A stretch of DNA of 47,636 bases. Origin: Plebeiibacterium marinum (lineage in GTDB: Bacteria > Bacteroidota > Bacteroidia > Bacteroidales > Marinilabiliaceae). Both the position numbers and the translations under genes were made by a program. Shown here in pieces: positions 13,825 through 43,417 of this stretch (its first letter is position 1; every line of letters begins with the position of its first letter). The stretch lies in assembly GCF_026013615.1 (NCBI RefSeq), contig NZ_JAPDPI010000044.1, positions 1 through 47,636 of the forward strand. Reading direction: 5' to 3'. The notes beneath the pieces were generated by a model. It saw only the letters and a list, made by a program, of their open reading frames with translations. It was not told the origin of the DNA and did no database searches.

Positions 13825-16098
13825 TTACTTTTTCCAAACAAAATCAGCTCCTTTTACATCTGCCGAATTTGTTCCAACATACACATTAAACTTTCCCGAC
13901 TCCCAATCCCACTGAAGATCATTATTATAGAATTTCAAGTCTTCGTGAGATAATGAAAATGCTACTTTTTGAGATTCCCCTGGCTGTAAGAATACTTTTT
14001 TAAATTTCTTCAATTCTTTAACAGGGCGAGCGATTGAAGCTACCGGATCATTTAAATATAACTGAACTGTTTCCTCCCCGGCGTAAGATCCTGAATTGGT
14101 TATGTTGATACTTACACTTAATCTTTTATCTGCTCCAATTAACAAAGTGTCACTCAATTCAACATCTCCATATTTAAATGTGGTATAACTTAAGCCATAT
14201 CCAAATGGGAAAAGTGGCGCATTGGTTTCATCCAGATAACGTGATTTAAAAGCTCCACGCTCTCCATCTTTAAATGGTCGTCCGGTATTTTTATAGTTAT
14301 AATAAATAGGCACCTGACCTAAAGATCTTGGGAAAGTCATTGTCAGCTTTCCTGAAGGATTATAGTTTCCAAACAAGACATCAGCAATACCTGCTCCAGC
14401 CATTGTTCCCGGACGCCAGGCTACCAATGCAGCATCTGTATAATCCAGGTTGTCTTCTAAAGTAAGCGGACGCCCATTTAGCAATACCAACACAACAGGT
14501 TTGCCTGTTGCCTTTAGTTTCTTTAATAACTGCAGCTGACAATTCGGTAAAGTGATATCACTCATTGATTTGGCTTCGCCAGATATATTCCGCGATTCTC
14601 CTAAAACTGCTACAATTACATCTGCATTTTTAGAAATCTTTAGTGCTTTATCCACTAACTGCGCCTGTTTTTCCTCATCAAACTTTCCAAAGTTCTTCAA
14701 ATAACCCGGGTTATCAGTTACCTGCGTTCCTTCAGTAAACTCCACATTGGGATTGATGTTTTTTATACCCTCTAAAATACTAACCACACTATCTTTTTGA
14801 CCATCCGGCGACCACATACTCATCATTTCATATTGATCTTCTACCAAAGGGCCAACCAAAGCAATTTTGCTATCTTTTTTTAAGGGCAACACCTGATTGT
14901 CATTCTTTAACAGAACAATTGATTTACTCACAGCCAGTTTGGCAACCTCTTTATTCTCCTGAGTCAGAATTACCTTCTTATACCTATCCGGATCGTAATT
15001 TCTATAAGGATCAGCAAAAAGTCCCAGGTCATATTTTCCTTCCAAAACCCTGCGACAAGCTTTGTCAACCTGTTGCATACTTACTTTACCCTCATCAACC
15101 AATTCTTTTAGGTAAGTAGCATATCCTTCACTGGCCATGTCCATATCCAATCCGGCATCAATGGATTTTTGCACAGCTTCTTTATAATCTTCAGCCACCC
15201 CATGAGGTATCAATTCCGATACACAACTGTAATCACTAACCACAATACCATTAAATCCCCAGTCATCTCTCAGTAAATCAGTTAACAACCATTTATTTGC
15301 TGTAGCAGGAATACCTTCAATATCGTTAAAGGATGTCATAATACTTCCAGCCCCGGCATCTACCGCGGCTTTATATGGAGGCAGATAATTTTGATATAAA
15401 GTAATCCTGCTCATATCTGTAGTATTATAATCCCTACCGGCCTCAGCAGCACCATATGCCGCAAAGTGTTTAATACAGGCCATTAATGAGGTTGGGTCAC
15501 TCAAATCATCTCCCTGATACCCTTTGACCATGGCTCTTGCAATCAAACTGCCCAAATACGCATCTTCACCAGATCCTTCCATAACCCTTCCCCATCTGGG
15601 ATCACGAGTGATATCAACCATTGGCGAATAAGTTTGATGATATCCCATTGAAGTAGCCTCAACAGCTGCAATACGAGCTGTTTTTTCAATAAGAACGGTA
15701 TCCCAGGTACAAGATAAACCCAAAGGAATAGGGAAAATAGTACGATACCCATGTATAATATCTAAAGCATTTAATATAGGAATGCGTAATCGGGTACTAT
15801 CCGCAAAAGCTAACTTATCATGAATTCTCTTGGGCGTTCCCCTTAACGACAATACATTACCTGCATCCCCTTCCTGCAGTTTTACAATAGCTCTTTTGGT
15901 TTTAAAAGGCCCGGTTCCTGCTGTGGGAGTAATCAAATTCAATTGGGCAATTTTCTCCTCCAGTGTCATTTTTTGCATCAAATCAGAAATAAACTGATCC
16001 TTCTTGATATCTTTTTTATCTCTTTGAATACAACTTGCCATTAAACAAGTTATTACAAACACATAAAATATCTTCATTATTCCGTCTTTTATTTTCAT
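13825..16098 (-). CDS. GH3 beta-glucosidase/beta-xylosidase-like lipoprotein (BglX type)
   Basis: This 757-residue enzyme is predicted to release terminal beta-linked glucose, xylose or similar from oligosaccharides. Residues about 8-23 (MKIFYVFVITCLMASC) form a lipoprotein signal, so the second ATG at 16077 is an equally plausible start. The GH3 N-domain (about 35-385) includes MTLEEKIAQLNL, WGRVMEGSGEDAYL, KHFAAYGA and the nucleophile Asp in GIVVSDYSCVSE (near residue 288). The C-domain holds the acid/base region GESRNISGEAKSMSDI and ends in an FN3-like module (from about 660). The active site looks intact. It lies 13 bp after the pseudo-GH2 gene in the same operon. Confidence 0.92.
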   Translation of the reverse strand: MKIKDGIMKIFYVFVITCLMASCIQRDKKDIKKDQFISDLMQKMTLEEKIAQLNLITPTAGTGPFKTKRAIVKLQEGDAGNVLSLRGTPKRIHDKLAFADSTRLRIPILNALDIIHGYRTIFPIPLGLSCTWDTVLIEKTARIAAVEATSMGYHQTYSPMVDITRDPRWGRVMEGSGEDAYLGSLIARAMVKGYQGDDLSDPTSLMACIKHFAAYGAAEAGRDYNTTDMSRITLYQNYLPPYKAAVDAGAGSIMTSFNDIEGIPATANKWLLTDLLRDDWGFNGIVVSDYSCVSELIPHGVAEDYKEAVQKSIDAGLDMDMASEGYATYLKELVDEGKVSMQQVDKACRRVLEGKYDLGLFADPYRNYDPDRYKKVILTQENKEVAKLAVSKSIVLLKNDNQVLPLKKDSKIALVGPLVEDQYEMMSMWSPDGQKDSVVSILEGIKNINPNVEFTEGTQVTDNPGYLKNFGKFDEEKQAQLVDKALKISKNADVIVAVLGESRNISGEAKSMSDITLPNCQLQLLKKLKATGKPVVLVLLNGRPLTLEDNLDYTDAALVAWRPGTMAGAGIADVLFGNYNPSGKLTMTFPRSLGQVPIYYNYKNTGRPFKDGERGAFKSRYLDETNAPLFPFGYGLSYTTFKYGDVELSDTLLIGADKRLSVSINITNSGSYAGEETVQLYLNDPVASIARPVKELKKFKKVFLQPGESQKVAFSLSHEDLKFYNNDLQWDWESGKFNVYVGTNSADVKGADFVWKK

Positions 16099-16111: not shown

Positions 16112-17965
16112 CTAATACTTTGTTTTATCAAGGTTCCATCTTTCACGAATAATCTGGGCTGCAGCTTTAGGTCTCCGGTCCCTGGTAAAAACACCTTTTG
16201 TATTGTATCCTCTTAACCTGATAATGCTTTGGGGTGTTTTATAATCGGCAAAATTTGAAATGATCATACCTGAAATATAATCTTTGGTATTGGCCATATC
16301 CAAATATGCCTTGATCAGACTCTTTTGATACTCCTCTGAATACATCTCAGGTTGCAGAGCATGTTCGCCTGCTATAGAGCTCGCCCCAAATTGGGTTAGC
16401 AAACATGGTTTATTAAATGTTTTATGCAAGTTATCCAATTCTTTGCAAACATTTTTAACTCCTTCTGCAATCTGACCATTGCTTTTGCTCCATCCCTCAA
16501 ACCTATTGATACAGATAACATCTGATAAACCAAACCAATCTGTAAAACCATCTTCATCACCCATAAACATTACCAAACGGGTAGGATCTATTTCTTTTGC
16601 TTTGTTGATATATTTTGCAAACAAGTCATAAGCAATTTCTTGTCCCTGACCTTCCGCATTATTTAATATCGTGTTTTTTGGTCCATTGGCCAAACTCCAC
16701 ATAATAACTGAAGGATGGTTTTTATCTCTCAATATCATTTCAGTAAGATATTGATAAGATATATTCTCAATTTTCTTTAGCGCTGTAGTATCAATCGTAC
16801 TAAACAACCCTATTGCAGGCGTTTCATCAATAATTAAAATACCTTCTTTGTCTGCAATATGATAGTTCATCTCGTCATGAGGGTAGTCTGATGTCCTGAA
16901 TGTATTAGCTCCCATCCATTTTAATAATTCAATATCCTTTACCATTGCAGGCAAAGTGCTGCCCCTGCCATATATCGGAAAATCCTGCTGCTTGCCAAAC
17001 CCTCTCAATTTAATCGGCTTGCCGTTTAAAAGGATGTTTTTATTATCCGTTGTAATGGTGCGAATACCGGTTTCTAAAGAATAAACATCTATAGTTTTCT
17101 TCTTTCCACCAATACGAACCGCTACAGTATATAAAAATGGATTATCCGGAGACCACAATTTTGCATTCGGAATTTTAATGGAAACTTGGGCATGGCCATC
17201 TTCAAACTTTATGTTTTTTTCAATCTGTTTGCCATCGCCTGAAACAACTAGTTGACCACCAATATTATTATTCCGGCTCAACTCAACCATAATATTTAAT
17301 ATACCGTCCTTTTCTTTAATATCAGGTCTTATGGTAATATCTTTAATTGAGACTTCGGAAGGGACTGAATACAGCCACACATCCCTGTTTAAACCTGCAT
17401 AAGGGAAAATATCATATTCGCTAACCGCAATATTATTGACCCCATCACCAGGCAAGCGGTTGGGTTTAATTGAGTTTTCAACCTGAATAGATATCCGGTT
17501 ACTCCCATCCCAATTGACAAAAGGAGTAACATCGAAAGCAAAAGGCACAAAGCCTCCTTCGTGCATACCAACCGGATGTCCGTTTACCCATACTTTTGCA
17601 GCGTAAGAAGCCTCTCCAATTCGTAAATAAACCTGTTCCCCTTTCCATGATCCGGGAATATTGTATTCAGTTTCGTACCATACCCAATCCCTGTAATCGC
17701 GCATATCTGTAAATTGATCATTCCAACTTCCAGGTACGGCAATGCTTTTAAATCCGGTTAATCCATTATACCATTTCTCGGAGATTCCTATATTGTTTTC
17801 GTCTTTCTTAAACTTCCATATACCTGATAATTTTCTCATATCTCTGGTTTCATTCCTTTGCGGAAACAAAGCCATATCCTTTGGGTTTGCATATTTAAAC
17901 TCCTGTGCCTGTGCATTTATAACAAAGCAAATGAGTAGCAGAAAGATTATATATTTAGTTTTCAT
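16112..17965 (-). CDS. GH2 family pseudoenzyme: both catalytic glutamates replaced
   Basis: This 617-residue exported protein (signal peptide about 1-20, INAQAQ) has the complete GH2 layout: jelly roll (about 25-195), Ig-like domain and TIM barrel. It is a close paralogue of the gene immediately upstream (17973-19853). The acid/base motif, NEP in the paralogue, reads ANGPK here (Gly428, codon gga at 16682-16684). The nucleophile motif, TEFG in the paralogue, reads TQFG (Gln525, codon caa at 16391-16393). Each change is one base away from a Glu codon. The reading frame, signal peptide and fold residues are otherwise intact, which argues for a retained non-hydrolytic role such as glycan binding rather than random decay. 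It lies 7 bp after its paralogue and 13 bp before GH3. Confidence 0.88.
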   Translation of the reverse strand: MKTKYIIFLLLICFVINAQAQEFKYANPKDMALFPQRNETRDMRKLSGIWKFKKDENNIGISEKWYNGLTGFKSIAVPGSWNDQFTDMRDYRDWVWYETEYNIPGSWKGEQVYLRIGEASYAAKVWVNGHPVGMHEGGFVPFAFDVTPFVNWDGSNRISIQVENSIKPNRLPGDGVNNIAVSEYDIFPYAGLNRDVWLYSVPSEVSIKDITIRPDIKEKDGILNIMVELSRNNNIGGQLVVSGDGKQIEKNIKFEDGHAQVSIKIPNAKLWSPDNPFLYTVAVRIGGKKKTIDVYSLETGIRTITTDNKNILLNGKPIKLRGFGKQQDFPIYGRGSTLPAMVKDIELLKWMGANTFRTSDYPHDEMNYHIADKEGILIIDETPAIGLFSTIDTTALKKIENISYQYLTEMILRDKNHPSVIMWSLANGPKNTILNNAEGQGQEIAYDLFAKYINKAKEIDPTRLVMFMGDEDGFTDWFGLSDVICINRFEGWSKSNGQIAEGVKNVCKELDNLHKTFNKPCLLTQFGASSIAGEHALQPEMYSEEYQKSLIKAYLDMANTKDYISGMIISNFADYKTPQSIIRLRGYNTKGVFTRDRRPKAAAQIIRERWNLDKTKY

Positions 17966-17972
17966 TGGTAGT

Positions 17973-19853
17973 CTATTTTTTGTTCCCTTTATTATTAAAC
18001 CATCTCTCCCTTAGGTAATGGGCTGCCATTTTAGGCTTTCTTTCGCGTGTAAAAACCCCCTTTAAATTATAACCCCCAAGGCGTATAATCGATTGGCTTG
18101 TTTTAAAATCAGCAAAATTCCAAATGTGCATTCCTACTACATAATCCTTTGATTCTGCTACATCCAAATAGGCTTTAATAAAATCTACCTGATACTCTTC
18201 AGTAAACATTTCAGGCTCCTCGGCATGCATACCGGCGTAAGTATCGCACCCAAACTCTGTAACCATACATGGTTTTTTATGCTTTCGATGCAAACGGTCG
18301 AGCTCACTGCTCAATACTGAAGATCCATTTTCGATACTCCCCGGCGATGTGTACCATCCCCAATACCGGTTAATTGCAATAACATCGGTTAATTCAAACC
18401 AATACCTGGGTCCCATCATGGGGCCTACATAAATTACCAATCGCGTAGGGTCTAGTTCCTTAGTCAGGTCAAAATGCTCTTTAAACAAAGAATATGCTCT
18501 TTCTTTTGTAGCTTTTGAGGTAGGACCTGCCATGCCCAATTGAGCTTTGTCGTTGGGTTCATTGGCCACACACCACATAATTACAGAAGGATGGTTCTTG
18601 TCCCTGTAGATAACCTCGTGTAAGTATTGTTTACATACCCTTTGCCTTTCGGCTAGTTGTAATGAATCACCTCCCATGATTAACCCAACACTTGGCGTTT
18701 CGGCAATAACCATAAAACCATGCTGATCTGCCATATCATAAAAACCTTCATCATAAGGATAATGGGTAGTCCGGAATGAATTGGCACCTGTCCATTTCAT
18801 CAATTCAAAATCCTTCACCATCACCGGATCTGCAGTTCCCCTTCCTATTACCGGAAAGTCGATGTGTTTTCCGAAACCATTTAAAAATATTTCCTCACCA
18901 TTGAGGTATATATGTTTTTCGTCCACAGAAACTATCCTGACTCCTGTTTTTAGGGAATATTTATCCACATTGGCTCCCTTTTCTTCCAACACCACTTCAA
19001 CCTCATATAAATTTGGAGAATCAGGGCTCCATAATTTTGCTTCAGGGATCTGGATGCTTGTTGTTGCATAATGGTTACTAAACCTTATGTCTTTGGCTAT
19101 CTGTTGTCCGTGCCCTTTAACAATTACTTTTCCGGACTGAATACTTCCGTTTTTTTCTACCTCAACATTTAATATTCCGGTAGTATTATTAATATCGGGT
19201 CGAACCGTAATATCTTTAATATGTCCTTTTGCCGGCAGACTATATAATACCACATTCCTGTTTAAACCCGAATAAGGGAAAAAATCGTAGTTGGCATTGG
19301 GGTAATTTCCAAACGAACTTCCCTCCACTGCTCCTGTTGGAACTCTGGATGGAGACTGAATATTTTCAACCTGAATAGAAATTTTGTTTTCTTTTCCCCA
19401 TTGTAAATACTCATTCAGTTTAAATGCAAATGGCACATGACAACCTTCATGTTGCCCTACGGCTTTACCGTTTACCCATACTTTGGCAAAATAAGTAGCA
19501 TCATTTATCCTGATATAGATATCTTCACCTTGCCACGAGGCAGGAATATAAAAATCTTTCTCATACCAACACCAATTCAGATAGTCTCTTAGATCTGTAT
19601 ATTGCTCATTCCAGCTGCCCGGCACAGCAATCTGCCGGCATTCAGTCACTCCGTTATACCACTCTTTTTGAATCCCTTCATTTAAGGAGTCTACTTTAAA
19701 CTTCCATATTCCTGAAAGATCAATACTATTCCTGAATTGGTTTTGGATAGGCACCAAAGCAATATCTTTTGGGATAGCCTCTTTAAACTTTTGGGAATGT
19801 AATCCCAAACTAATTATTAAGAGTAAATATATTATTGCATATTTCTTTTTCAT
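17973..19853 (-). CDS. GH2 family glycosidase (beta-glucuronidase/beta-galactosidase-like)
   Basis: This 626-residue exported enzyme (signal peptide about 1-20) resembles beta-glucuronidase-type GH2 proteins: LSGIWKFKVDS, IAVPGSWNEQYTDLRDYLNWCWYEKDFYIP and KVWVNGKAVGQHEGCHVPF in the jelly roll, then an Ig-like domain, then the TIM barrel. Both catalytic residues are present: acid/base Glu432 in MWCVANEPN and nucleophile Glu533 in MVTEFGCDTYAG. Specificity (glucuronide, galactoside or arabinoside) is not certain. It is the active half of a tandem duplication with 16112-17965. Confidence 0.9.
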   Translation of the reverse strand: MKKKYAIIYLLLIISLGLHSQKFKEAIPKDIALVPIQNQFRNSIDLSGIWKFKVDSLNEGIQKEWYNGVTECRQIAVPGSWNEQYTDLRDYLNWCWYEKDFYIPASWQGEDIYIRINDATYFAKVWVNGKAVGQHEGCHVPFAFKLNEYLQWGKENKISIQVENIQSPSRVPTGAVEGSSFGNYPNANYDFFPYSGLNRNVVLYSLPAKGHIKDITVRPDINNTTGILNVEVEKNGSIQSGKVIVKGHGQQIAKDIRFSNHYATTSIQIPEAKLWSPDSPNLYEVEVVLEEKGANVDKYSLKTGVRIVSVDEKHIYLNGEEIFLNGFGKHIDFPVIGRGTADPVMVKDFELMKWTGANSFRTTHYPYDEGFYDMADQHGFMVIAETPSVGLIMGGDSLQLAERQRVCKQYLHEVIYRDKNHPSVIMWCVANEPNDKAQLGMAGPTSKATKERAYSLFKEHFDLTKELDPTRLVIYVGPMMGPRYWFELTDVIAINRYWGWYTSPGSIENGSSVLSSELDRLHRKHKKPCMVTEFGCDTYAGMHAEEPEMFTEEYQVDFIKAYLDVAESKDYVVGMHIWNFADFKTSQSIIRLGGYNLKGVFTRERKPKMAAHYLRERWFNNKGNKK

Positions 19854-19902: not shown

Positions 19903-21621
19903 TTATTCTATATTCTTTGCTGATTTAAGCACATCCTCTCCCATTGTTATCCCATTTTCGTTGAAAGCATCAATTGTAAAATAATAGTCTTGCTTACTAT
20001 TTAAACTTCTGATAGATAAGGAATCACAATCATATACCTGATAATTTAAATACAGCTTCTCTGGATTAGTTCCATAACGAATATTGTATCCTATGGCCTT
20101 TGGATTCTTATTCCATTTTAAATCCACAACACAACCGTCATCCGGATTTCTTTTTACGGTCAACTGATCCACAATGCCCGGTTTCTTTCCATTTCCAAAA
20201 CCAAATACACGGAACCCTGAAATCGCAAATTTTCCATCAGGAACCTTATAATTAGTAATTCGTATGTATCTTCCATTTACAGATGAATCCAGTTCGATAT
20301 AATCATGTGGAGCATCTTGAATGTTATTTGTTTTATCAATTAGAACAGTCCAGTTCTTTTTATCATTAGAGTATTCAATTAAATACTGATAATAAATATC
20401 TTGAGGCCGACCCAAAATCTTTGTATCAACATCGGCAAAATTTATTTGCAAGGCATGAACATCTTTCTCTTCCTCAAGATCTATCATTAGCCACTCTCCT
20501 TTTCTACCTGATAATGCACTCCATGAGGTTTTTATATTTTCATCTACACAGTTCTCTTTTTGATGGTCGTTAAATGATGAAGAAACTTCAACAGGCTTAT
20601 TATAGGAAAGCAACATATATTGAGGCTGGTAATCCTTATAGCTATTCATTTTACCCTGAGGTTTAGCATGCGGATAATCTCCAAAACCAGTATAGGCGTA
20701 AAAACATCCATCTTCATCAAAAAAGGCAGGAAACATCCCTATTCTTCGTTCCAACCTGTGTTTTACGGCAACAGTCATGGTACCTGCATACCAGTAATTA
20801 CCAAATTCATCGTTAAATACAGAACCATGGCCGGCTCCGGCAATAAAACCTTCCGGCTTATACGAAAACGGGTTGATTTCGGCAAGGTTAAATGGCCCTA
20901 GTGGGTTTTCGCTCACATACATCCCATCTCCATAGCTTTTAAATTGGGTTCCTGGTACTGAATAATGTAAATAATATTTGTTGTTATGCTTTGTTACAAA
21001 AGCACCTTCCACCCAGGCTCTTTTTTTTGTATCAGTGTTATAATCCCCGCGTCTCTCCCAACCATAATACTTCCTGTTCGATACAAGAAGATCTGCCTCT
21101 TCTCCTATTGGCTGTAACGATTCTCGATCCAACTCAATTCCTTTAATTGGGGTACGCGCAGACAAGCCATGATATAAGTACATTCGGCCATCTTCATCCC
21201 TGAAAATAGTTGGATCAAACGTTCTGGCATATATTGAATCGTTTTTAATATCCCATTTACCACTTATGGGATTAGAACTTTGATATATCTTTTGATTTAA
21301 GGCCATAAAATAAACAGTGTCGTTTATATTGATAGCCGTAGGGGCATATTCCTCAACAGGGAGGTCTTTTGTTTCGATCAATTCCCAATCGATCATATTA
21401 TTTGAATGATAATATCCTCCTGATTTGGATAAGAACATAAAATAGTCGCCATTGTAGCAAACAACAGAAGGATCGGCGGCTTCACGCCTGGAGGGTTCAT
21501 CTAGTTGAAAGCGATAGCTTAAATTAACCGGATTACAAAAAGTTTCATTTTTAAAGGAAGTAAACTTACATCCACTTAAAACCAATACAATAAATAATAT
21601 TGAAGGCAAAAATATTTTCAT
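19903..21621 (-). CDS. GH43 family glycosidase lipoprotein with discoidin-like and FN3 domains
   Basis: This 572-residue lipoprotein (lipobox LSGC, Cys18) is built like its paralogue at 3189-4901: GH43 propeller (about 30-325), F5/8 type C/CBM32-like domain (about 350-480, ENIKTSWSALSGRKGEWLMIDL) and an FN3-like C-terminus. The triad is intact: Asp50 in EAADPSVV, Asp in FDPTIFRDEDG and Glu in WVEGAFVTK. It probably acts on arabinofuranosyl or related side chains at the cell surface. It is the first glycosidase after the receptor and small-protein genes, separated from them by a repeat element, so it may have its own promoter. Confidence 0.88.
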   Translation of the reverse strand: MKIFLPSILFIVLVLSGCKFTSFKNETFCNPVNLSYRFQLDEPSRREAADPSVVCYNGDYFMFLSKSGGYYHSNNMIDWELIETKDLPVEEYAPTAININDTVYFMALNQKIYQSSNPISGKWDIKNDSIYARTFDPTIFRDEDGRMYLYHGLSARTPIKGIELDRESLQPIGEEADLLVSNRKYYGWERRGDYNTDTKKRAWVEGAFVTKHNNKYYLHYSVPGTQFKSYGDGMYVSENPLGPFNLAEINPFSYKPEGFIAGAGHGSVFNDEFGNYWYAGTMTVAVKHRLERRIGMFPAFFDEDGCFYAYTGFGDYPHAKPQGKMNSYKDYQPQYMLLSYNKPVEVSSSFNDHQKENCVDENIKTSWSALSGRKGEWLMIDLEEEKDVHALQINFADVDTKILGRPQDIYYQYLIEYSNDKKNWTVLIDKTNNIQDAPHDYIELDSSVNGRYIRITNYKVPDGKFAISGFRVFGFGNGKKPGIVDQLTVKRNPDDGCVVDLKWNKNPKAIGYNIRYGTNPEKLYLNYQVYDCDSLSIRSLNSKQDYYFTIDAFNENGITMGEDVLKSAKNIE

Positions 21622-22330: not shown

Positions 22331-24703
22331 CTAAAATTTAAAATTAACTGTCAACTCAAAAGTTCTTGGACGCAAAGCACTTGCCACAATCGGATGCCCA
22401 ACATAATTCTGTGCAACTTCTTCCTTGGTAGTTTGTGCTGCCCCCTGTACTTCTCCTTTTATCCCTCTTTGATTCAAGAAATTCACAACCTGTAGTTTAA
22501 TTGCAACATTGCGACTCATTGTATAATCCAATCCACCAAAGTTTTCCCACCAACCATTGTATTCAAATGCGTTGGTACGATTTCCATACTGCTTACCGAA
22601 GTAACGTAAGCTAAACCATGCTTTCATTTTTCTTTTCATGAAAGAATAGCTCGGATCAATTTCCATCAACACTTTAGATAATCCTGGATAAATCTTACCG
22701 TTGTAATCGTAACTTTCCACATCTTCTTCTCCACTAGTCGGATCAGAGAAACGTGTTGTAAATGCATAATCTTTATATTCCGGACTTTGAAGCGTCAAGA
22801 GAAAATGTATATTAAAATTCTTAAATGGAGAGGAAACAATATCAGTTGACCAACCAGTTGTTGACAGACCATAGAATAAAGGTCCCACATCCTGTTTTTG
22901 TGTTGGATCCTTTTTATAAGTAATCAACGAACCAGAGTCGTAAATCCCATTTTTCTCGATATGTGTAAGCTTTGAAACAATGTTCAACTTTTCACCCAAA
23001 TTCAGGAAAATACCACCATCATAGTAAATAACATCTTGTCTGTATGACTTTGATTCGGTTGTTCTTGGATAAGGTTCGCCAGGTGCTGCAACAGGCACAT
23101 TGTTTTCGTCTTTATATGCATAATCCCAGTAAGTGTCCATCCATGAGTTATAAGTAAAGCTACCTAACAATCCGAAATTCTTTGTCAATTTAACTACGGC
23201 ATTTCCAAGACCCACATAATTCCAGTCATTCAATTCGCCATCCACATATCCACCTGCAGTAACTACTTCATTTCCTGAAACTGCAGTATAATGCCTGTCC
23301 TTTTTACTCAATCTTTCGATACGTCCGCCTAAACCTAAATCCAACCACGGTGCCGGGCTGAAATCGTCGGAAACATATAACGCTGTCTTATTGAACGAAT
23401 CATCAGTCAGGCCGCCATAACCTCCTGCACCAGCCAGCAGACCGTTTTCTGAACTGGTAAGATCAAACGGATAGCCATAATAACTTCCCTGAACATAAAG
23501 TACACTCGGATTTGGTTCAACAGAGATAACATAAAGTCCTCCTAAAGATTCGTATTCTCTTTTATTATATTGGTTAGTAAGTCCCAGGCGCAAAGCATGG
23601 CCATTCGCTTTCTTTGTTAACTCTGCCCTGGTCATCCAGGTTGTAATGTCACTTTGAGGAATAAGCTGATTCGTAACCAACTGAGCATATTCTCCTTCAT
23701 ACTCCCTGTTTGAACCTAAATAATAGGCAGTGGTAGTTTGACCTAAGATTGATTGTTTATTATATATATTCGCACTGATTGGATAAGTAAGTCCTATAGG
23801 AGTATTCATTTTTTGGAACATTGTGCTATAGGTTAATTTCATTCCATTTTTGAACTTATGGTTCCCCGACAAATATAAATTGTGTGATTCTGAATGCCTG
23901 AACTTATCACTTCCTAAATCTGCATATCCGACTTCACCTGTGCGAGGATCTGTATAAGGTACAATCCCGCTGCCTACGATATACGAATCTGTTCCCGGAT
24001 CAAAATTATCAAGGGCTTCTGTTTCCCCATCACCTAAATACATCAATGGAGCGTTGTTATTAAAAACGCTTTTTGAATCTACCATCTTATACATCAAGCG
24101 TACCGAACCTTTGGAGTATTTCTTTTCAATCAATGCTTTAAGCTGCGAAGTTTTTGATCCCCATGATGTAAACTGGTAATTAGTTCCATTGGTTTTGTTG
24201 TTGTGCTGGTATGCATTCAACATATAGCCCCAGCCCTTTTTACCAAGTGGACCAGTCAAAGTCACATCAAATTTTGATGATCCAAAATTGTCTGTAAATA
24301 CAGAAGCATATCCACGAAACTTCCTGGACGCGCCCCTATCTTCAGACTTAACCGCAAAACCAACCTTACCCCAGGTAAGTGCACCCTCAGAGAAAGAAAG
24401 TAAGCCCATTGCTCCAAAACTATTACTCATACGCCAGGCATAAGTTGGAATGGTAGGCCAAAAATAAGCCACTACGGGTACATCATTTTCCAAAATAACA
24501 ATATCTCCTCTGTAAGGCAGTCCAATATTCACTTCCCTCGGGCCGGTGTTGCTTTCAGCATTCAACATGACATTTCTATTGCCTTCTTCTTTAGAAGAAA
24601 ACTTCTTCACTTTAATGCTATCATTCTCCTCCTGCCCAAATGAAGGTGCTGATATTAGTGTTGCAAACACAATACCCAATACAATAATTAGATTTTTTTT
24701 CAT
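22331..24703 (-). CDS. TonB-dependent outer-membrane receptor without SusD partner
   Basis: This 790-residue outer-membrane protein has a signal peptide (MKKNLIIVLGIVFATLISAPSFGQ). The start at 24703 is preferred over an in-frame ATG 23 codons upstream because the signal peptide begins there. The mature N-terminus (about 30-110: GPREVNIGLPYRGDIVILENDVPVVAYFW) looks like a short plug domain. The rest alternates beta-strands and loops and ends in an aromatic C-terminus (FELTVNFKF) typical of 22-strand barrels. There is no carboxypeptidase-like N-extension as in SusC and no SusD gene beside it. It heads the minus-strand cluster and probably imports the glycan or glycoside degraded by the following enzymes. 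Confidence 0.85.
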   Translation of the reverse strand: MKKNLIIVLGIVFATLISAPSFGQEENDSIKVKKFSSKEEGNRNVMLNAESNTGPREVNIGLPYRGDIVILENDVPVVAYFWPTIPTYAWRMSNSFGAMGLLSFSEGALTWGKVGFAVKSEDRGASRKFRGYASVFTDNFGSSKFDVTLTGPLGKKGWGYMLNAYQHNNKTNGTNYQFTSWGSKTSQLKALIEKKYSKGSVRLMYKMVDSKSVFNNNAPLMYLGDGETEALDNFDPGTDSYIVGSGIVPYTDPRTGEVGYADLGSDKFRHSESHNLYLSGNHKFKNGMKLTYSTMFQKMNTPIGLTYPISANIYNKQSILGQTTTAYYLGSNREYEGEYAQLVTNQLIPQSDITTWMTRAELTKKANGHALRLGLTNQYNKREYESLGGLYVISVEPNPSVLYVQGSYYGYPFDLTSSENGLLAGAGGYGGLTDDSFNKTALYVSDDFSPAPWLDLGLGGRIERLSKKDRHYTAVSGNEVVTAGGYVDGELNDWNYVGLGNAVVKLTKNFGLLGSFTYNSWMDTYWDYAYKDENNVPVAAPGEPYPRTTESKSYRQDVIYYDGGIFLNLGEKLNIVSKLTHIEKNGIYDSGSLITYKKDPTQKQDVGPLFYGLSTTGWSTDIVSSPFKNFNIHFLLTLQSPEYKDYAFTTRFSDPTSGEEDVESYDYNGKIYPGLSKVLMEIDPSYSFMKRKMKAWFSLRYFGKQYGNRTNAFEYNGWWENFGGLDYTMSRNVAIKLQVVNFLNQRGIKGEVQGAAQTTKEEVAQNYVGHPIVASALRPRTFELTVNFKF

Positions 24704-25400
24704 ACTTACTACATTTTTTAAATCGCATTTCCCACTTGGAAATACAATCGTTTTTTGTTTAGTTTTTTTCACACTTTTTAAATTGTTATAGCAAAACTAC
24801 ATTGGGCAAATTCAAAAAGCTTTCTGCTCGCTAATTATGTATTAGATAGACCTCCCGGTAATGTATAAAGCACCGTCCACCTTTTCTATTTAATTACAGT
24901 ACTGCTACTTATACCACTCGTAATATAAAAACAAAAAACGAAAAATACCCTTATCACCAAAGCAAAAAAATGTATACCAAACGCAAATCAGAAGAAAAAC
25001 ACCATGTGTGTATTTTTATTTTTTTAACTATTTAAAGGGGAAACACATCACTTTCCATAAAATCTGCATGATGAAAAACAAACAGGTTTATCCTCTTATC
25101 TCAGTAGGAAAACCTGGAGTTATTATGAAAAGACAAAATTGAAGAAAGCGTAAAGCATGAACGGCATTAAAAGTTTACTAACGAGATAAAAAGAGGGGAG
25201 TATTGTAGCTCTTGTAATGATAAAACTTTTGTTTTAAGAGCAGAAACCTTTAATATATATGTGTGTTTTTTACCAACACTTACCATATCACACCCCTCTT
25301 CTGGATAAACCGGAAGAGAATTAATATATAAGTATCGATATTATTAACTTCTTTTTTTTATCCCATATTCTGCTAATAAAAATTCTTGTTTAGTTACTAA
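24704..25400. other. Intergenic region, 697 bp, no gene recognised
   Basis: This AT-rich stretch lies between the receptor gene and the AraC-type regulator, both on the minus strand. It should contain the promoter of the receptor-led cluster and the end of the regulator transcript. A 9-bp stem with one G-U pair (ctcttctgg/ccggaagag, near 25288-25310) is visible but has no T-run. No tRNA, small RNA or convincing reading frame was seen. Confidence 0.5.
24792..24799 (-). promoter_or_regulatory. Candidate Bacteroidota -7 box (TAGTTTTG) upstream of the receptor gene
   Basis: On the minus strand the sequence reads TAGTTTTG, matching the Bacteroidota consensus TAnnTTTG, 89 bases before the receptor start codon. 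No convincing -33 TTTG element was found at the expected spacing, so this is a weak call. Confidence 0.25.
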
Positions 25401-26522
25401 TCAGGCATTTTTATATTCTGTAGGAGTCATGCCTGTATGCTTTTTAAAAAAATTATAAAATGCAGACTTTGAATTAAAGCCACTTTCGTAGGCTATTGCC
25501 ACAAATGACCAGGCCTGATGTTCTGGTGACTTAATTAAATTCTTTGCACACTCAACCCTGTACTCATTAATAAAGTTGTAAAAATTCTTTTGGATATTTT
25601 CGTTGAGTACCTGGGTAATATAATGTTTAGGTATACCTGTTTGTGAAGACAGTTTAGATACAGTCAATTCATTATCCTTCCAAATTTGCGAATGGTTCAT
25701 AAAATCAATTAACTTATCCATATAATCTTTTGCCTGATTTTCTTTTAAGGACGAAGTCTGGTACTTTCCTGATGCACTATCATTTGTACCCGCAGATTTA
25801 TTTAACCGGATAGGTTCAATATCCACATTCAATTGATTTTGCCTGTACCCCCAAACACTAATAACATAAACCAAAGTTAATAAAGCACCGCTTCTAAACA
25901 ATTCTATATGTGCAATAAAGGAAGATGTATGAAATGCACTAATTAATATTATAAAATTATATATTACCAGTGTAATCACAATCACAGCTAACAGCCAGGT
26001 GAGGCTAATTTTATCTGATTCATAAGAGTAGGTACTGGAAATCTGCTTTTGATATCGAAATATGATATTTAACGATAAAACTGCATATATCCACAAACTG
26101 AAAATAAAAGACCAACCTATAATCTTCCTCAATTGTAGATGTGAATAAAAATAATCTGTCAATGATTCTAAGTCTTTATACTCACTATTATAGTAGTGAA
26201 ATAATACAATAAAAAATACGATAACTGCTGGACTAAACAAAAACAAATCTGATTTTGAGAAGCGCTCATATTCTTTTATAACATATTTCGAATATAGATA
26301 AAACAATGGATGCCATGTTAAGGAAATCATGATGGAAACAGGCCAAAGATCAATCTCTATTGAATAATGCTGCTTAAAAACATTAAGTGCAAACATACTT
26401 GCCATTACAAACAACCATGCGCTCAATATTTTATCTGAAATACTTGAAGGCCGTTTTAGTAATACGATTAATCCTGCAAATAAGGAGTGCGCCAATCCAA
26501 TATGTATAAATGCCAGTTCCAT
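25401..26522 (-). CDS. Membrane-embedded AraC-family transcription regulator
   Basis: This 373-residue protein has about seven hydrophobic segments in residues 1-225 (for example SLFAGLIVLLK, LFLFSPAVIVFFIVLFHYY, ISLTWLLAVIVITLVIY). A cytoplasmic linker follows, then a C-terminal AraC double helix-turn-helix (about 275-372: ELTVSKLSSQTGIPKHYITQVLNE, FVAIAYESGFNSKSAFYNFFKKHTGMTPTEY). This 7TM-plus-AraC design is common in Bacteroidota and suggests that a signal sensed in the inner membrane is passed directly to DNA. It lies between the glycan cluster (same strand) and the divergent efflux operon, so either could be its target. A long inverted repeat precedes its start codon. Confidence 0.9.
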   Translation of the reverse strand: MELAFIHIGLAHSLFAGLIVLLKRPSSISDKILSAWLFVMASMFALNVFKQHYSIEIDLWPVSIMISLTWHPLFYLYSKYVIKEYERFSKSDLFLFSPAVIVFFIVLFHYYNSEYKDLESLTDYFYSHLQLRKIIGWSFIFSLWIYAVLSLNIIFRYQKQISSTYSYESDKISLTWLLAVIVITLVIYNFIILISAFHTSSFIAHIELFRSGALLTLVYVISVWGYRQNQLNVDIEPIRLNKSAGTNDSASGKYQTSSLKENQAKDYMDKLIDFMNHSQIWKDNELTVSKLSSQTGIPKHYITQVLNENIQKNFYNFINEYRVECAKNLIKSPEHQAWSFVAIAYESGFNSKSAFYNFFKKHTGMTPTEYKNA

Positions 26523-26955: not shown

Positions 26956-28326
26956 ATGACCATACGAAGCACGTATTTATTATCGATTCTTTTTATGATC
27001 AATATATTTTCCACTAATGCACAGGAAAAATATATTATGAATCTAAAGCAAATGTTGGAATTTGCCGAGCAAAACAATTATGAAATCAGAAGCGCCGAAA
27101 TTGAAAAGCTGAAAAGTGAGCAATTGATAAAGGATGTCAGGGGGAACGGACTTCCAAAAATAGAATCTTCTTTAGAATATAAAGATTACGTTAAAAAGGC
27201 CACTATGATCCTACCAGGTGCTCTTACCGGTGTACCCGGGGCTCCTGATATTGTTGCGCAATTTGGAAAAAAATACAATCTGGATGCAGGGGTTCAGGCA
27301 TCGCAGCTACTTTTTTCACTCGGATATATCAGGGGGGTACAAATTGCTAAAAAAGCAAGCGAAATTAAAAGCCTGCAAAAGGACAAAGCTAAAATTGAGG
27401 TCATTCAATTGTTGGCGACAGAATATTATAATTTAATGGCTATCTATAAAAACCTTGAAATTATAGATAACAATTTAAAATCACTGGAACAAACCCGAAA
27501 GAGAACTAAAAACCTGGTAGACGGAGGATTAGCTTTACATACTGATTTAAACCGGATTGAGGTAAATTATGCCAGTCTTCAATCTCAAAGGGAACAGATA
27601 ATAGCAGGCATTGATGTGCAGACCAACAACCTAAAATACATTATTGGATTAGATACACAAACGGAATTACTTGTTGATACAAGCAACATTTCAAATTTGT
27701 TTTCATACCAACCATCAAATCTTCCAATACGAAAAAAGGAAGAATTAAATTTTGAAAACCTAAATGAAATTAAACTTATCAATCAAAATATTGAATTAAA
27801 TAAACTACAAATAAAACAAGCCAAATCTCAGGTAACTCCAACATTAGCAGCATTTGCCAGTCATACCTATCAGGCACAACGCGATGAATTTAACTTTACA
27901 AACCCCGATAAAGACTGGTTTAAAGTATCTGTAGTAGGATTTAACGCTACGATACCAATACTGTCAGGTTTTTCGAACCGGGCTAAAATAAAAACTGCTA
28001 AACTCGAATTGCAAAACTCACAAATATTGAAAGATCAGTCTTATTCCGGACTCGAAATTCAATACCTGAATGCCTTGATGCAATATAATACATGCATTAA
28101 AAACTGCCTTGTACAACAAAAAAGCATTGAACTCGCTAAAGATGTTAAAAACCAGACAGAGCTGAAATATAACCAGGGACTATCAACCTTAACTGACCTT
28201 TTAATAGCAGAACAGGAATTAAGAAGTGCTGAAGTAAACTACGTAAAAAACTGTATTTCTATGAATCAGGCAGAAGTTGACCTGTTAAAATCACAAGGAA
28301 CTCTGGAGTTCCACGATTTTAAATAA
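26956..28326 (+). CDS. TolC-family outer-membrane efflux protein
   Basis: This 456-residue protein has a signal peptide (about 1-22, FSTNAQ) and two repeats of the outer-membrane efflux fold. The long coiled-coil helices are visible at about 30-60, 130-215, 270-300 and 355-450, and the typical NYEIRSAEIEKLKSEQLIKDVRGNGLP and KDVKNQTELKYNQGLSTLTDLL blocks mark the two TolC repeats. It forms the outer-membrane channel of the tripartite pump encoded by the two following genes (57 bp and then 164 bp spacing). Confidence 0.92.
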   Translation: MTIRSTYLLSILFMINIFSTNAQEKYIMNLKQMLEFAEQNNYEIRSAEIEKLKSEQLIKDVRGNGLPKIESSLEYKDYVKKATMILPGALTGVPGAPDIVAQFGKKYNLDAGVQASQLLFSLGYIRGVQIAKKASEIKSLQKDKAKIEVIQLLATEYYNLMAIYKNLEIIDNNLKSLEQTRKRTKNLVDGGLALHTDLNRIEVNYASLQSQREQIIAGIDVQTNNLKYIIGLDTQTELLVDTSNISNLFSYQPSNLPIRKKEELNFENLNEIKLINQNIELNKLQIKQAKSQVTPTLAAFASHTYQAQRDEFNFTNPDKDWFKVSVVGFNATIPILSGFSNRAKIKTAKLELQNSQILKDQSYSGLEIQYLNALMQYNTCIKNCLVQQKSIELAKDVKNQTELKYNQGLSTLTDLLIAEQELRSAEVNYVKNCISMNQAEVDLLKSQGTLEFHDFK

Positions 28327-28383
28327 GAGGGAGCGATACTTGAACTACATACCATCTATATATGAATTTTAAAAACAATAGTA

Positions 28384-29451
28384 ATGAAAAAAATAATTAG
28401 GACCTCTACTTCCATTACAATCATAGCTGTAATTTGTTTGCTTATATTTTTGCAACTAAAAGGGAATAAGGAAAACAATCAAAACATCACCGAGTTAGCA
28501 AACATCAAAGGGCAACACTACCCTGTAAAAATCATTACAGCAAAACCTTCAATGTTTGCCTCATCAATAAACACGAATGGTTTTCTGCAATCTTATACTG
28601 ATTTAAATCTGGTGGCCGAAACCAACGGTAGAATTGTTAAGATTTACAAGAGAAAAGGGGAACATATTCAAGTTGGCGATACCATAGCCAAAGTTGACGA
28701 TGAAATGCTTAGAGCGCAACTAAATGCCACCAAGGCAAGCTACGACCAATTACACAAGGAGGTTGAACGCTTTACAAAATTAGCAAATCAAAATGCTGTT
28801 ACCAGTCAACAGTTAGATGAAATCAAGCTCAATTACGAAACCACAAAAGCACAATATATTTCAGCTAAAAAACAATTGAACAACACCTGTATTACATCTC
28901 CTGTAGATGGATATATTGAACAGGATTTTATTGAAATCGGTCAGTTTGTTGGCAACGGAAGTGTTGTGTGTAATATTATCGATTCAAAAAACTTAAAACT
29001 GCAGATTGAGATAGCTGAAGAGAATTATAAAAATATAGGGAAAGGTATGGAAGTAGAAATAAGCACCTCTACATTTCCGGACAGGGACTTTACCGGAACC
29101 ATTTCTTACATTGGTAAAAAGGCAGGTTATGGAAATAGCTTTAATGCTGAAGTTAAAATCAATAACAACAACGAGGGATTGCTAAAAGCAGGTATGTATG
29201 TAACTGCAAAAATTGAGATAACCGGCAACACAGAGGAATACTACATCCCAAGAAAAGCAATATCCGGTTCTCTAAAAGATGCTTCTATTTATTTGATAGT
29301 GGATAACAAAGCTGTTTTATCAAATGTTACAACCGGTAAAGTAATTAACGACCAGGTTCAAATCATCAATGGCTTAAAATCTGGCGATAAAGTGGTTATT
29401 GAGGGTAATTATAGCATTTACAACAATGCCAATGTGAAAATTCTGAACTAG
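28384..29451 (+). CDS. RND efflux periplasmic adaptor (membrane-fusion protein)
   Basis: This 355-residue protein has an N-terminal membrane segment (about 8-25), a split lipoyl domain (NGRIVKIYKRKGEHIQVGDTIAKVDD and ITSPVDGYIEQDFIEIGQFVGNG), a coiled-coil hairpin between them (about 105-160), and beta-barrel and membrane-proximal domains (KIEITGNTEEYYIPRKAISG..., VQIINGLKSGDKVVIEGN). This is the HlyD/AcrA family layout at normal length. It links the inner-membrane pump to the TolC-like channel. Confidence 0.93.
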   Translation: MKKIIRTSTSITIIAVICLLIFLQLKGNKENNQNITELANIKGQHYPVKIITAKPSMFASSINTNGFLQSYTDLNLVAETNGRIVKIYKRKGEHIQVGDTIAKVDDEMLRAQLNATKASYDQLHKEVERFTKLANQNAVTSQQLDEIKLNYETTKAQYISAKKQLNNTCITSPVDGYIEQDFIEIGQFVGNGSVVCNIIDSKNLKLQIEIAEENYKNIGKGMEVEISTSTFPDRDFTGTISYIGKKAGYGNSFNAEVKINNNNEGLLKAGMYVTAKIEITGNTEEYYIPRKAISGSLKDASIYLIVDNKAVLSNVTTGKVINDQVQIINGLKSGDKVVIEGNYSIYNNANVKILN

Positions 29452-29615
29452 TATCACTTTGACTATAAACTCACCTAAAAAAACAGATAAAACTATCATG
29501 ATTAAGTATTAAACACACAGGAGGATGATTAAAAAGAAAAACTCTGCGTCTCAGCATCTCGGTGTTCGTAGTCTATCATCTCTTATCCATCAGACTCTTG
29601 TATAATTTTAAACAC

Positions 29616-32600
29616 ATGAAAATTGTAAGCACATCCATAAAACGAGGCACAGTACCTATTGTACTGTTTACCATCCTGATTTTGCTGGGATTGTTTTCTG
29701 CCTCAAAAATTAAATACGCACTTATACCGGAAATATCTTCTCCTACTGTAATGGTCTCGACTATTTACCCGGGAGCTAGCCCTAAAGAAGTTGAGCAATC
29801 GGTCACTGTTCCCATTGAGGATGCAGTTTCCTCTCTTGAAGGGATTGAAGAAATGACATCTTCTTCCATCGAAAATCTTTCCGTTGTTACCTTATCGTTA
29901 GATTTTGATGCCGACGTAAATATCGCAGTGCAGGAAGTAACCCAAAAAGTGAATAGCATTGTCAGCACATTGCCAAAAGAAATTAAGGCTCCTTCGGTTG
30001 AAAAGTTTGATTTAAGCTCATTGCCCATCTTTATTGCCGGGGTAAACTCTTCTCTTTCCGACAGTAAGTTTTTTCAGTTTGTTGACGACAGAATCAAACC
30101 TGATTTAGCCAGTATACAAGGAGTAGCTACTGTAAACCTGGTGGGAGGTGTAGAAAGGGAAATCAAAATCATGATTGATCCTTTAAAACTTAAGGCCAAT
30201 AAGCTCAACCTGCTTAATGTGACTCAAATGATTCAATATGCAAACCTTGAGCTACCAACTGGGAAATTACAAACCCCAACAAATGAAATGACCGTACGTC
30301 TCTCGGGTAAAATCAGGACTATTGATCAGCTTAAGAATATTATTGTAGGAGCCAATAAAACCGGTTCGATACTACGTTTAGGTGATATTGCAGATATTTA
30401 TGATGGTATTGCCGACCAGGAAAAAATAACGCGTTTAAATGGCCTTGAAACAATTGGTATTGAAATCAGTAAGCAAAAAGATGCCAACTCGGTAGAAGTA
30501 ATACGACTGATCCGTCAGAAATTTAAAGAACTGGAGGCTCAATACACCGAAGAAAACATCAAATTCACAATAGCTGAAGACCAATCTCAATTTACCATCC
30601 AGGCTGCAACTGCAGTAGAACATGATTTAATCATGGCCATTATCCTGGTATCCGTAATTATGGTGTTGTTTTTACATAGTCTGCGGAATTCTATCTTCGT
30701 TCTTGTTGCCATACCAACCTCGCTAATCTCGACATTTACCGCCATGTATTTGCTTGATTTTTCTTTCGACCTCATCAGTTTAACTTCATTATCGCTGGTT
30801 GTGGGTTCGCTGGTTGATGATGCCATTGTTGTGATTGAAAATATTTACAGGCATATGGAAATGGGCAAAAATAAAGTCCAGGCATCATACGATGGTCTTA
30901 AAGAATTAGGGATGACCGTAACTGCTATTACTCTTGTACTGGTAGCGGTATTCCTGCCTATTGCATTTGTAACCGGAGTGGTTGGAGATATACTTAGGGA
31001 GTATGCTGTTACAATCGTTATTTCAATGTTGTTCAGTTTACTGGTTTCCTTTACTTTAGTTCCCTGGATGACCTCAAAGTGGGCCAAATTATCCACTCCT
31101 AAAAACAAAGCAATCAGTAGTTTCCTAAATGGGTTCGAAAAATCGATCAATGCAGTAAATAAAAACATTGTTTCAGCAATGCACTGGTCGTTAAAGCACA
31201 AAACGGTCACTTTGCTGGCTACTGCCATACTGTTTTTTGGTACTTTTATGTTATTCCCTGCTGGTTTTATCGGAGGTGAATTCGCTTCTTCCGGAGACCG
31301 TGGTGTATTTATGTTACGACTTGAGTATGCGCACGACGTAAGCCTGCAGGAGAACAATAACAAAACAAGGGAAATTGAGCAATATTTACTTAATCAACCT
31401 GAGATAGACATGGTATATGCTACCGTGGGAAAAAGATCAGGTATGATTAGTACAACTTCAACTCCATATTATAGTGATATCAACGTTTATCTGGTTCCCA
31501 AAGACAAACGTGCACAATCAACTAATGTGTATGCAAGGAAGATAAAGGCACATCTGGAAGAAACCACTATAGGTGCAAAAATAAAAGCCGTTTCTGTAAA
31601 TATTATGGGTAGTGAGGATGTTCCGTTAAGTTATTTTATTGTAGGGTATAATATGGACAGTGTAATGCACTATGCTCACCAGGTAAAAGATTGCCTATCT
31701 TCTGTAGAAGGAACTTTGGAAACAGAACTCAGTGTTGACAAAAACAATCCTGAATATGTGATTGATGTTGACAGGGACAAGATGACAAAACTAGGCCTGG
31801 ATCTTGCTTCTGTTGCCGGAATACTCAGAACTTCCTTTGCAGGCAACACCGACAACAAATTTAGGGATGCTACCAAAGAATATGATATCAATATCCAGTT
31901 GAACGAGGCAGATAGAAGAACAAAGGAGGATTTAGCTGATATCTCCTTCCCTTCGATGGCAACTAACGAATTGATCAAACTGTCACAGTTCGCTCAGATA
32001 CACGAGGGGGTTGCTCCTTCAAATTTAGAGAGATACAACAGAAGCCCTTCAACTAAGTTGACAAGCCAGATTATTGGTGCATCACAGGCTTCGGTTCAAA
32101 CTTCTTTTGAAGAGAAATTAAAAGAAATAAAAGCACCTGCAGGAACAAAGGTGACAACATCCAAGCAAACAAGAATGATGGCAGAGTCTTTTATTTCATT
32201 AGGATTAGCATTGTTGGCTGCTATTATTTCTGTTTATCTGATTATGGTCGTTTTATACGATAGCTGGGCAGACCCTTTTGTAGTGATGTTTTCCATTCCT
32301 TTGTCGATTATAGGTGCCATATGGGCATTGGCTCTTGCTAACCAAAATTTAAATATATTCTCTATCCTGGGTATAGTTATGTTGGTTGGCCTCGTTGCTA
32401 AAAACGCTATTCTTATTGTGGATTTTGCAAACGAACTGCTTAATGAAGGTAAATCATTAGTTCAGGCAATTGAAACCGCGGTAGAACTTCGCTTTCGCCC
32501 AATTTTGATGACGAATATTTCCATGATCATCGGACTTTTCCCATTGGCCTTTTCTCAAAGTGAAGGTGCAGAATGGAAAAATGGTATTGGTTGGACATTA

Positions 32601-32726
32601 ATAGGAGGATTAACGGTTTCCATGTTCCTATCCATGATTATAGTACCCATCGTATTTTATTTAATCAAAAGAGTACAGCAAAAATGGGGACTTAGCTCTC
32701 ATAGTAAAATAGATTTTAAAGAATAA
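29616..32726 (+). CDS. RND multidrug efflux transporter (HAE type, AcrB-like)
   Basis: This inner-membrane proton-driven pump has 1036 residues from the ATG at 29616. That start is preferred over an ATG 18 codons upstream because MKIVSTSIKRGTVPIVLFTILI is the standard RND N-terminus. Two repeats each have a large periplasmic loop; TM4 carries the proton-relay pair Asp401-Asp402 (LVVGSLVDDAIVVIEN) and TM10 the Lys929 (LVGLVAKNAILIVDF). These residues place it among drug or small-molecule exporters rather than heavy-metal pumps. The substrate is unknown; export of toxic aglycones or phenolics released by the adjacent glycosidases is possible but speculative. Confidence 0.94.
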   Translation: MKIVSTSIKRGTVPIVLFTILILLGLFSASKIKYALIPEISSPTVMVSTIYPGASPKEVEQSVTVPIEDAVSSLEGIEEMTSSSIENLSVVTLSLDFDADVNIAVQEVTQKVNSIVSTLPKEIKAPSVEKFDLSSLPIFIAGVNSSLSDSKFFQFVDDRIKPDLASIQGVATVNLVGGVEREIKIMIDPLKLKANKLNLLNVTQMIQYANLELPTGKLQTPTNEMTVRLSGKIRTIDQLKNIIVGANKTGSILRLGDIADIYDGIADQEKITRLNGLETIGIEISKQKDANSVEVIRLIRQKFKELEAQYTEENIKFTIAEDQSQFTIQAATAVEHDLIMAIILVSVIMVLFLHSLRNSIFVLVAIPTSLISTFTAMYLLDFSFDLISLTSLSLVVGSLVDDAIVVIENIYRHMEMGKNKVQASYDGLKELGMTVTAITLVLVAVFLPIAFVTGVVGDILREYAVTIVISMLFSLLVSFTLVPWMTSKWAKLSTPKNKAISSFLNGFEKSINAVNKNIVSAMHWSLKHKTVTLLATAILFFGTFMLFPAGFIGGEFASSGDRGVFMLRLEYAHDVSLQENNNKTREIEQYLLNQPEIDMVYATVGKRSGMISTTSTPYYSDINVYLVPKDKRAQSTNVYARKIKAHLEETTIGAKIKAVSVNIMGSEDVPLSYFIVGYNMDSVMHYAHQVKDCLSSVEGTLETELSVDKNNPEYVIDVDRDKMTKLGLDLASVAGILRTSFAGNTDNKFRDATKEYDINIQLNEADRRTKEDLADISFPSMATNELIKLSQFAQIHEGVAPSNLERYNRSPSTKLTSQIIGASQASVQTSFEEKLKEIKAPAGTKVTTSKQTRMMAESFISLGLALLAAIISVYLIMVVLYDSWADPFVVMFSIPLSIIGAIWALALANQNLNIFSILGIVMLVGLVAKNAILIVDFANELLNEGKSLVQAIETAVELRFRPILMTNISMIIGLFPLAFSQSEGAEWKNGIGWTLIGGLTVSMFLSMIIVPIVFYLIKRVQQKWGLSSHSKIDFKE

Positions 32727-43389: not shown

Positions 43390-43417
43390 ATCTGTTTCAA
43401 TTATATTTTTGTTCAAA

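Follow-up and report, generated by a model that had tools for sequence, protein, structure and literature searches.

Glycosidase paralogues that are dead as enzymes but functional are already known, heparanase 2 and inactive GH28 proteins of leaf beetles being two examples. Heparanase 2, like heparanase 1, is a GH79 protein. In passages of one report (PMC12406646), it is described as a dead paralogue kept for another role, which binds substrate tightly and inhibits its active paralogue. The abstract of a leaf-beetle study (PMC6549527) likewise describes inactive GH28 members that take part in the degradation pathway in which the active ones work. Within GH2, passages of a third paper (PMC12243196) describe GH2_21 beta-glucuronidases that lack the classical acid/base glutamate and are active, another Glu being thought to substitute for it.

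The gene analysed here, termed PSI, probably adds a GH2 case. It lies in a contig of Plebeiibacterium marinum (NZ_JAPDPI010000044.1, assembly GCF_026013615.1) that was analysed over its whole length of 47,636 nucleotides and is called the window below. Like E. coli beta-glucuronidase (GUS; model NF007538), PSI is homologous over the three GH2 domains and keeps the NxKG motif, Arg562, Asp163, and Asn412 (E. coli GUS numbering), but unlike bacterial GUS, it lacks both catalytic glutamates, Tyr468, Tyr472, Trp549, and two histidines, and scores below the NF007538 cut-off. It also differs from each of the systems above. Heparanase 2 is an animal protein of a different family that keeps its acid/base Glu, whereas PSI has neither Glu; the beetle GH28 proteins belong to another family, another kingdom, and an expanded multigene family, whereas PSI is part of a two-gene tandem; and the GH2_21 enzymes, in the passages of PMC12243196, are active, whereas PSI lacks the nucleophile as well. 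The best feature of the PSI case is an apparent preserved intermediate, the sister protein C121B described below. A limited open-access search, covering titles and abstract openings and few subscription journals, found no GH2 or glucuronidase pseudoenzyme of this type among the papers listed.

Two tandem pairs of beta-glucuronidase-like genes

PSI (16112..17965, minus strand) encodes a GH2 beta-glucuronidase-like protein of 617 residues with three GH2 domains. The frame begins with ATG and stays open over 617 codons with no internal stop, and the N-terminus, MKTKYIIFLLLICFVINAQAQ, is an apparent type I signal peptide as judged by eye, which agrees with the first-pass annotation of an intact gene with a signal peptide. 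The Pfam sugar-binding (PF02837), middle (PF00703), and TIM-barrel (PF02836) domains all score above their gathering cut-offs, and residues 32-611 match solved GUS structures with an E value of 3e-111; the fold assignment is based on this homology. AlphaFold gave a mean pLDDT of 42.5 from the single sequence, too poor for work on the pocket or interfaces, and 51.9 from 3 rows (PSI, its tandem neighbour, and an Anaerolineae protein), in which pocket and interfaces were still unreadable. On the NCBIfam beta-glucuronidase model NF007538, PSI reaches 496.6 bits, below the cut-off of 544; with such a score, a dead glycosidase of this kind is readily annotated as an enzyme. Because no canonical lipobox was seen by eye in the signal peptide, in which Cys13 comes after LLI, display of PSI at the cell surface appears unlikely. 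A role in binding glycans at the surface, as in Sus-like loci, was considered unlikely on the same grounds.

On the 5' side of PSI, separated by 7 bp, lies its tandem paralogue copy A (17973..19853, minus strand; 626 residues), a beta-glucuronidase-like protein with an intact active site: all 12 of the active-site residues considered below are present, including Glu432 and Glu533, and its NF007538 score of 554.6 bits is above the cut-off of 544. The two proteins align over their full length, as had been noted at first sight, with 52-53% identity. A second tandem pair, C121A and C121B, is present in the same genome on contig C121, in the same gene order and with a gap of 10 bp. C121A has a complete active site, and C121B (L053:15310-17151), which keeps both catalytic glutamates, is the closest homologue of PSI found (55-56% identity). 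In a maximum-likelihood tree, PSI and C121B split from the other sequences with a support of 100. Contig C117 carries a lone copy A, again with an intact active site.

Relatives outside this genome are distant. At an E value of 1e-90, none was found in 70 other genomes of the same family (up to 18 candidates scored per genome), and at 1e-100, none was found beyond the genome itself in samples of 393 genomes of the order and 395 of the class (up to 3 candidates per genome). The phylum sample (395 genomes, again with up to 3 candidates scored per genome) yielded relatives in 11 other genomes, with 35-39% identity; the order, class, and phylum counts all include the genome itself. A scan of genome contigs returned 2 relatives, an Anaerolineae protein with 44% identity, which was used, and a partial Prevotellaceae sequence with 32%, which was left out. 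A scan of viral contigs with the alignment gave a single relative (26%). In a plasmid search, all 1891 records were below 60% identity, the best ten of the 1891 lying at 32.5-34.0%, and from these matches, only E. coli uidA entered the analysis. The Anaerolineae protein (L040:7998-9782), from a metagenome-assembled genome and 44% identical to PSI, is the nearest relative found outside the genome; that it is closer than the 11 phylum matches hints at transfer between phyla.

Active-site losses and their likely order

Active-site residues were compared in an alignment of 18 proteins, comprising PSI, 4 close paralogues from its own genome, E. coli GUS, the Anaerolineae protein, and the 11 proteins with 35-39% identity, which come from the same phylum but from different families. 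Leaving out PSI and C121B gives a reference set of 16 (3 A copies, the Anaerolineae protein, the 11 phylum proteins, and E. coli GUS). The 15 positions inspected are those that we take to form the active site of E. coli GUS, several of which are named in literature passages. Because 3 of them (162, 466, and 503) vary among the 16 reference proteins, the comparison was restricted to the 12 that do not. PSI lacks 7 of these 12 residues (H296Q, H330D, E413G, Y468F, Y472S, E504Q, and W549S) and keeps 5 (D163, N412, which is Asn427 in PSI, R562, N566, and K568).

The acid/base Glu413 is replaced by Gly428 (GGA, 16682..16684) and the nucleophile Glu504 by Gln525 (CAA, 16391..16393), all coordinates in this section referring to the minus strand. 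The alignment thus places both residues of the first-pass annotation at the catalytic columns, and both catalytic residues are indeed lost, but 5 further losses had been overlooked. Gln326 (CAG, 16988..16990) takes the place of His296, and C121B has Gln with the same codon; His330 is replaced by Asp360 (GAC, 16886..16888), a new carboxylate in the active site, and by Tyr in C121B. Phe489 (16499..16501) replaces Tyr468, Ser493 (AGC, 16487..16489) replaces Tyr472, and Ser570 (TCA, 16256..16258) replaces Trp549. The catalytic substitutions had also been described as single-base changes. For each codon, there is indeed a Glu codon one base away, but whether the actual difference is a single base depends on the sequence used for comparison: GGA differs by 1 base from GAA in copy A and by 2 from GAG in C121B, while CAA differs by 2 bases from GAG in copy A and by 1 from GAA in C121B. 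At 2 further sites, the changes span several bases (TGG to TCA at Trp549, and TAT or TAC to AGC at Tyr472).

Asn-Glu occupies the acid/base column in 57 of 58 distinct GH2 frames, PSI being the sole exception. Half of these frames (29) come from the same genome, where 29 of 30 matching loci were counted and the weakest, C121:206768, was left out; the other 29 come from loci L011-L039, which are best hits to PSI and as such a non-random sample of relatives. Of 61 ORF rows at the start, 1 was removed as a duplicate and 2 because the acid/base column is empty in them. The count skips the nucleophile column, where the alignment of distant members is unreliable.

According to passages of a GH2 paper (PMC12243196), an Arg, an Asn, and a Lys together with a loop-6 Tyr bind the carboxylate of the uronate. 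PSI retains 3 of these 4 residues, Arg583 (R562), Asn588 (N566), and Lys590 (K568), in a clamp at 16196..16219 that includes the NxK motif and, with Gly591, the whole NxKG sequence. The fourth is gone; it is taken to be Tyr472, a match that is our own reading. Passages of another paper (PMC6712278) name conserved N and Y motifs of the active site as criteria for a functional GUS. By our choice of residues, PSI has the Asn (Asn427) and neither of the tyrosines equivalent to Tyr468 and Tyr472. Next to these 2 tyrosine positions in the sequence is a loop with Glu490 and Lys494 (16484..16498), followed just downstream by Asn496. All three residues are among 25 that PSI and C121B have in common and that none of the 16 reference proteins carries.

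Of the residues lost in PSI, C121B lacks only the 2 histidines (H296Q and H330Y); the glutamates, the tyrosines, and the tryptophan are all in place. It also has Ile instead of Thr directly before the nucleophile and could be a glucuronidase with impaired activity or a new specialisation. C121B is apparently an intermediate in a stepwise loss of residues. Since both B copies carry the codon CAG at this position, the simplest reading is that His296 was lost before they diverged; His330 is missing from both with different replacements, perhaps as a result of 2 events. The glutamates, tyrosines, and tryptophan would, again on the simplest reading, have been lost later and in the window copy only. 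From one tandem duplication, the genome thus preserves A copies with a complete active site, a B copy part of the way through the losses, and a B copy that is fully stripped, and with these 5 natural proteins, an order of loss from histidines to glutamates becomes testable.

Candidate roles for PSI

We favour the reading that PSI is a non-hydrolysing, uronide-holding partner or pseudo-subunit of copy A, and give it a probability of about 0.5. The sequences support a tandem duplication of a beta-glucuronidase-type GH2 gene into copies A and B, found together in 2 glycosidase clusters. In copy A, the active site is complete. The 2 pocket histidines are absent from copy B of either cluster, and the catalytic glutamates, 2 tyrosines, and the tryptophan are additionally missing from the window copy B, which overall has changed about as much as its sister. 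PSI would be secreted to the periplasm and fold as a GUS subunit. Because both residues of the double displacement are absent, it is expected to be unable to hydrolyse by the GH2 mechanism; with GH2_21 enzymes active in the absence of the acid/base residue, the missing nucleophile is the stronger argument for inactivity. The E. coli enzyme is tetrameric, and passages of PMC12943147 describe some GUS proteins in which the N-terminal loops of adjacent subunits form shared architecture. PSI may join copy A in mixed oligomers, in which the kept Arg/Asn/Lys clamp and the altered loop could hold or present a uronide without cutting it. A partner role is favoured because the A and B genes are tightly spaced in both clusters; the question that follows is whether a dead subunit can be of use in an oligomer of bacterial GUS. 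Against it, Tyr472, His330, and Trp549 are gone, which could weaken or alter the binding of glucuronate; the clamp residues could have been kept for folding instead.

The glycan-binding, scaffolding, or sensing function proposed in the first-pass annotation is plausible in general terms, and the reading ranked next is of this kind. PSI could be a free-standing periplasmic uronide-binding protein, in effect a lectin derived from GUS, that acts without copy A to buffer, retain, or sense its ligands. The combination of a kept Arg/Asn/Lys clamp and kept equivalents of Asp163 and Asn412 with the loss of both catalytic glutamates fits such a protein, and heparanase 2, a dead paralogue with high substrate affinity in passages of PMC12406646, provides a precedent. 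However, the equivalents of Tyr472, His330, and Trp549 are missing from the same pocket, and besides the AraC-type regulators of the window, C121, and C117 clusters, no partner for a sensor was identified. We regard this reading as possible but distinctly less likely than a partner subunit.

Both of these roles presuppose that PSI is maintained, and a third possibility is that it is an incipient pseudogene, i.e., a redundant copy B that lost catalysis, is drifting, and is open by chance. A drifting PSI should evolve faster than C121B. The relative-rate test gave 60:63, 70:62, and 69:57 unique changes in PSI and C121B with 3 outgroups and thus no acceleration against the sister, although the PSI branch also spans the time before the losses, so that the counts are not specific to the period that followed. 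Where all 3 A copies agree, 32 sites are changed only in PSI and 30 only in C121B. The maximum-likelihood branch is longer for PSI (0.49 versus 0.40 for C121B), and the B copies are less similar to each other (55-56% identity) than the A copies (65%), both of which would agree with drift. In all, 94 columns are invariant in the 16 reference proteins. Outside the 12 active-site columns, PSI retains 75 of 82 invariant positions and C121B 77 of 82, so that the changes in invariant columns are concentrated in the active site of PSI (7/12 versus 7/82; Fisher p = 1.8e-4). The counts for C121B are 2/12 versus 5/82 (p = 0.22); these p-values are descriptive only, the residue list having been settled after some of the changes were already known. 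All 617 codons are still open, and the multi-step codon changes at Tyr472 and Trp549 suggest that substantial time has elapsed.

The distribution of the catalytic pair is the remaining point in favour of a pseudogene. No orthologue with the Gly/Gln pair, for which the first-pass annotation had proposed to look, was found in the family, order, class, and phylum genome samples, and both glutamates are present in the closest homologue found, C121B of the same genome; the case for long-term maintenance of the pair itself rests on a single sequence. Orthologues that keep both glutamates had been put forward as a sign of sequencing error or very recent decay, but the 7 losses and the multi-step codon changes argue otherwise. 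An incipient pseudogene is, in our view, rather unlikely. With fold positions mostly kept, no acceleration, an intact gene, and tight spacing, PSI looks maintained, in keeping with the original proposal of a maintained GH2 pseudoenzyme in a degradation operon, and these comparisons make it quite probable that it is some form of maintained, non-hydrolytic pseudoenzyme.

For dN/dS, which the first-pass annotation had suggested, a home-made codon likelihood was computed for 5 paralogues of the genome over 583 codon columns, excluding gapped columns and the first 33 columns of the alignment. The result was set aside: synonymous substitutions have reached saturation, with most dS estimates per branch lying between 4 and 34, the richer model scored below the simpler one, indicating an unconverged optimiser, and omega exceeded 1 on 2 internal branches in the free-ratio fit. 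Comparing omega fixed at 1 on the PSI branch with omega left free gave a 2 delta lnL of approximately 30, which, with an unreliable codon model, is weak support at most.

It is improbable that PSI is a re-armed enzyme with chemistry switched to Asp360 and Glu490. The active GH2_21 enzymes of PMC12243196 indicate, in the passages concerned, that loss of the classical acid/base alone proves no inactivity; H330D adds a carboxylate to the active site, and Glu490 is common to both B copies. However, the nucleophile Glu, both tyrosines, and the tryptophan are also absent from PSI, and Asp360 is Tyr in C121B, hence no conserved residue of the B copies. Slightly more improbable still is the specific version in which the uronate clamp together with Asp360 and Glu490 would form a re-armed pocket for a non-Koshland reaction on uronides released from or presented by copy A. 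A sequencing error, assembly error, or chimeric assembly is hardly credible: the genome is a draft of 187 contigs, with the window being one whole contig, but 7 separate active-site changes, 2 of them multi-base, an open frame, and a GC content of 0.372 (0.343-0.391 in the paralogues) speak against it, and the multi-step codon changes led us to reject sequencing error.

Gene neighbourhood and sister clusters

A GH3 beta-glucosidase-like gene (BglX model; 13825..16098, minus strand) begins 13 bp downstream of PSI and is 65-66% identical to the GH3 genes in 2 sister clusters. Because the gaps are 7 and 13 bases, copy A, PSI, and the GH3 gene look like one operon. Between 13700 and 22400, promoter-like sites are at chance level (34 versus 31.8 in shuffles), and terminator-like sites number 13 versus 6.0 in shuffles. 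Upstream of PSI and copy A, also on the minus strand, are a GH43 gene with an F5/8 type C domain (19903..21621; 65% identical to the C121 copy), a gene for a putative outer-membrane barrel protein of approximately 800 residues as we read its sequence (22331..24772), and an AraC-type regulator (25401..26522). These are followed on the plus strand by TolC-like, HlyD-like, and AcrB-like RND efflux genes (26956..32726).

The clusters in the window and on contigs C121 and C117 have in common a GUS-type GH2, a GH3, the barrel protein, AraC-type regulators, and TolC/HlyD-type efflux genes. GH43 and GH78-like genes are present in the window and C121 clusters. The same two have an AcrB-type gene, with 78% identity between them; in C117, the first 2 efflux genes were seen. 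The full efflux set, which in the window is transcribed away from the AraC and glycosidase genes, recurs in the C121 cluster and suggests that export of the aglycone is coupled to deglycosylation. From these gene contents, we infer that the cluster could take up and strip small glycosides, for example plant phenolics or saponins carrying uronic acid, and export the aglycone.

The barrel protein has no Pfam match in the 3 copies scanned and no sequence match in the PDB. Four copies are present in the genome, one in the window and one each on C117, C121, and C141 (L081, L082, and L083), those in the 3 clusters being 47-51% identical by BLASTP. The fourth, on C141, adjoins genes resembling GH3 and other glycosidases, and at least 3 copies adjoin glycosidases, AraC regulators, and efflux genes. 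Among 8 other genomes of the same genus, the protein was found in 1, in 2 copies with 33-34% identity. No SusC/SusD pair adjoins the window barrel gene, one lying approximately 17 kb away (41320-46564), and the barrel protein may mark a SusCD-independent type of uptake for small glycosides. Adjoining the efflux genes is a probable toxin-antitoxin pair (32933-33912), with an Xre/MbcA/ParS antitoxin and a RES toxin. Further along, 35263-38145 is a single frame of 960 residues with a GH28 match at residues 211-333 and a GH97 match from residue 342 onward, an apparent fusion that, to our knowledge, is unusual.
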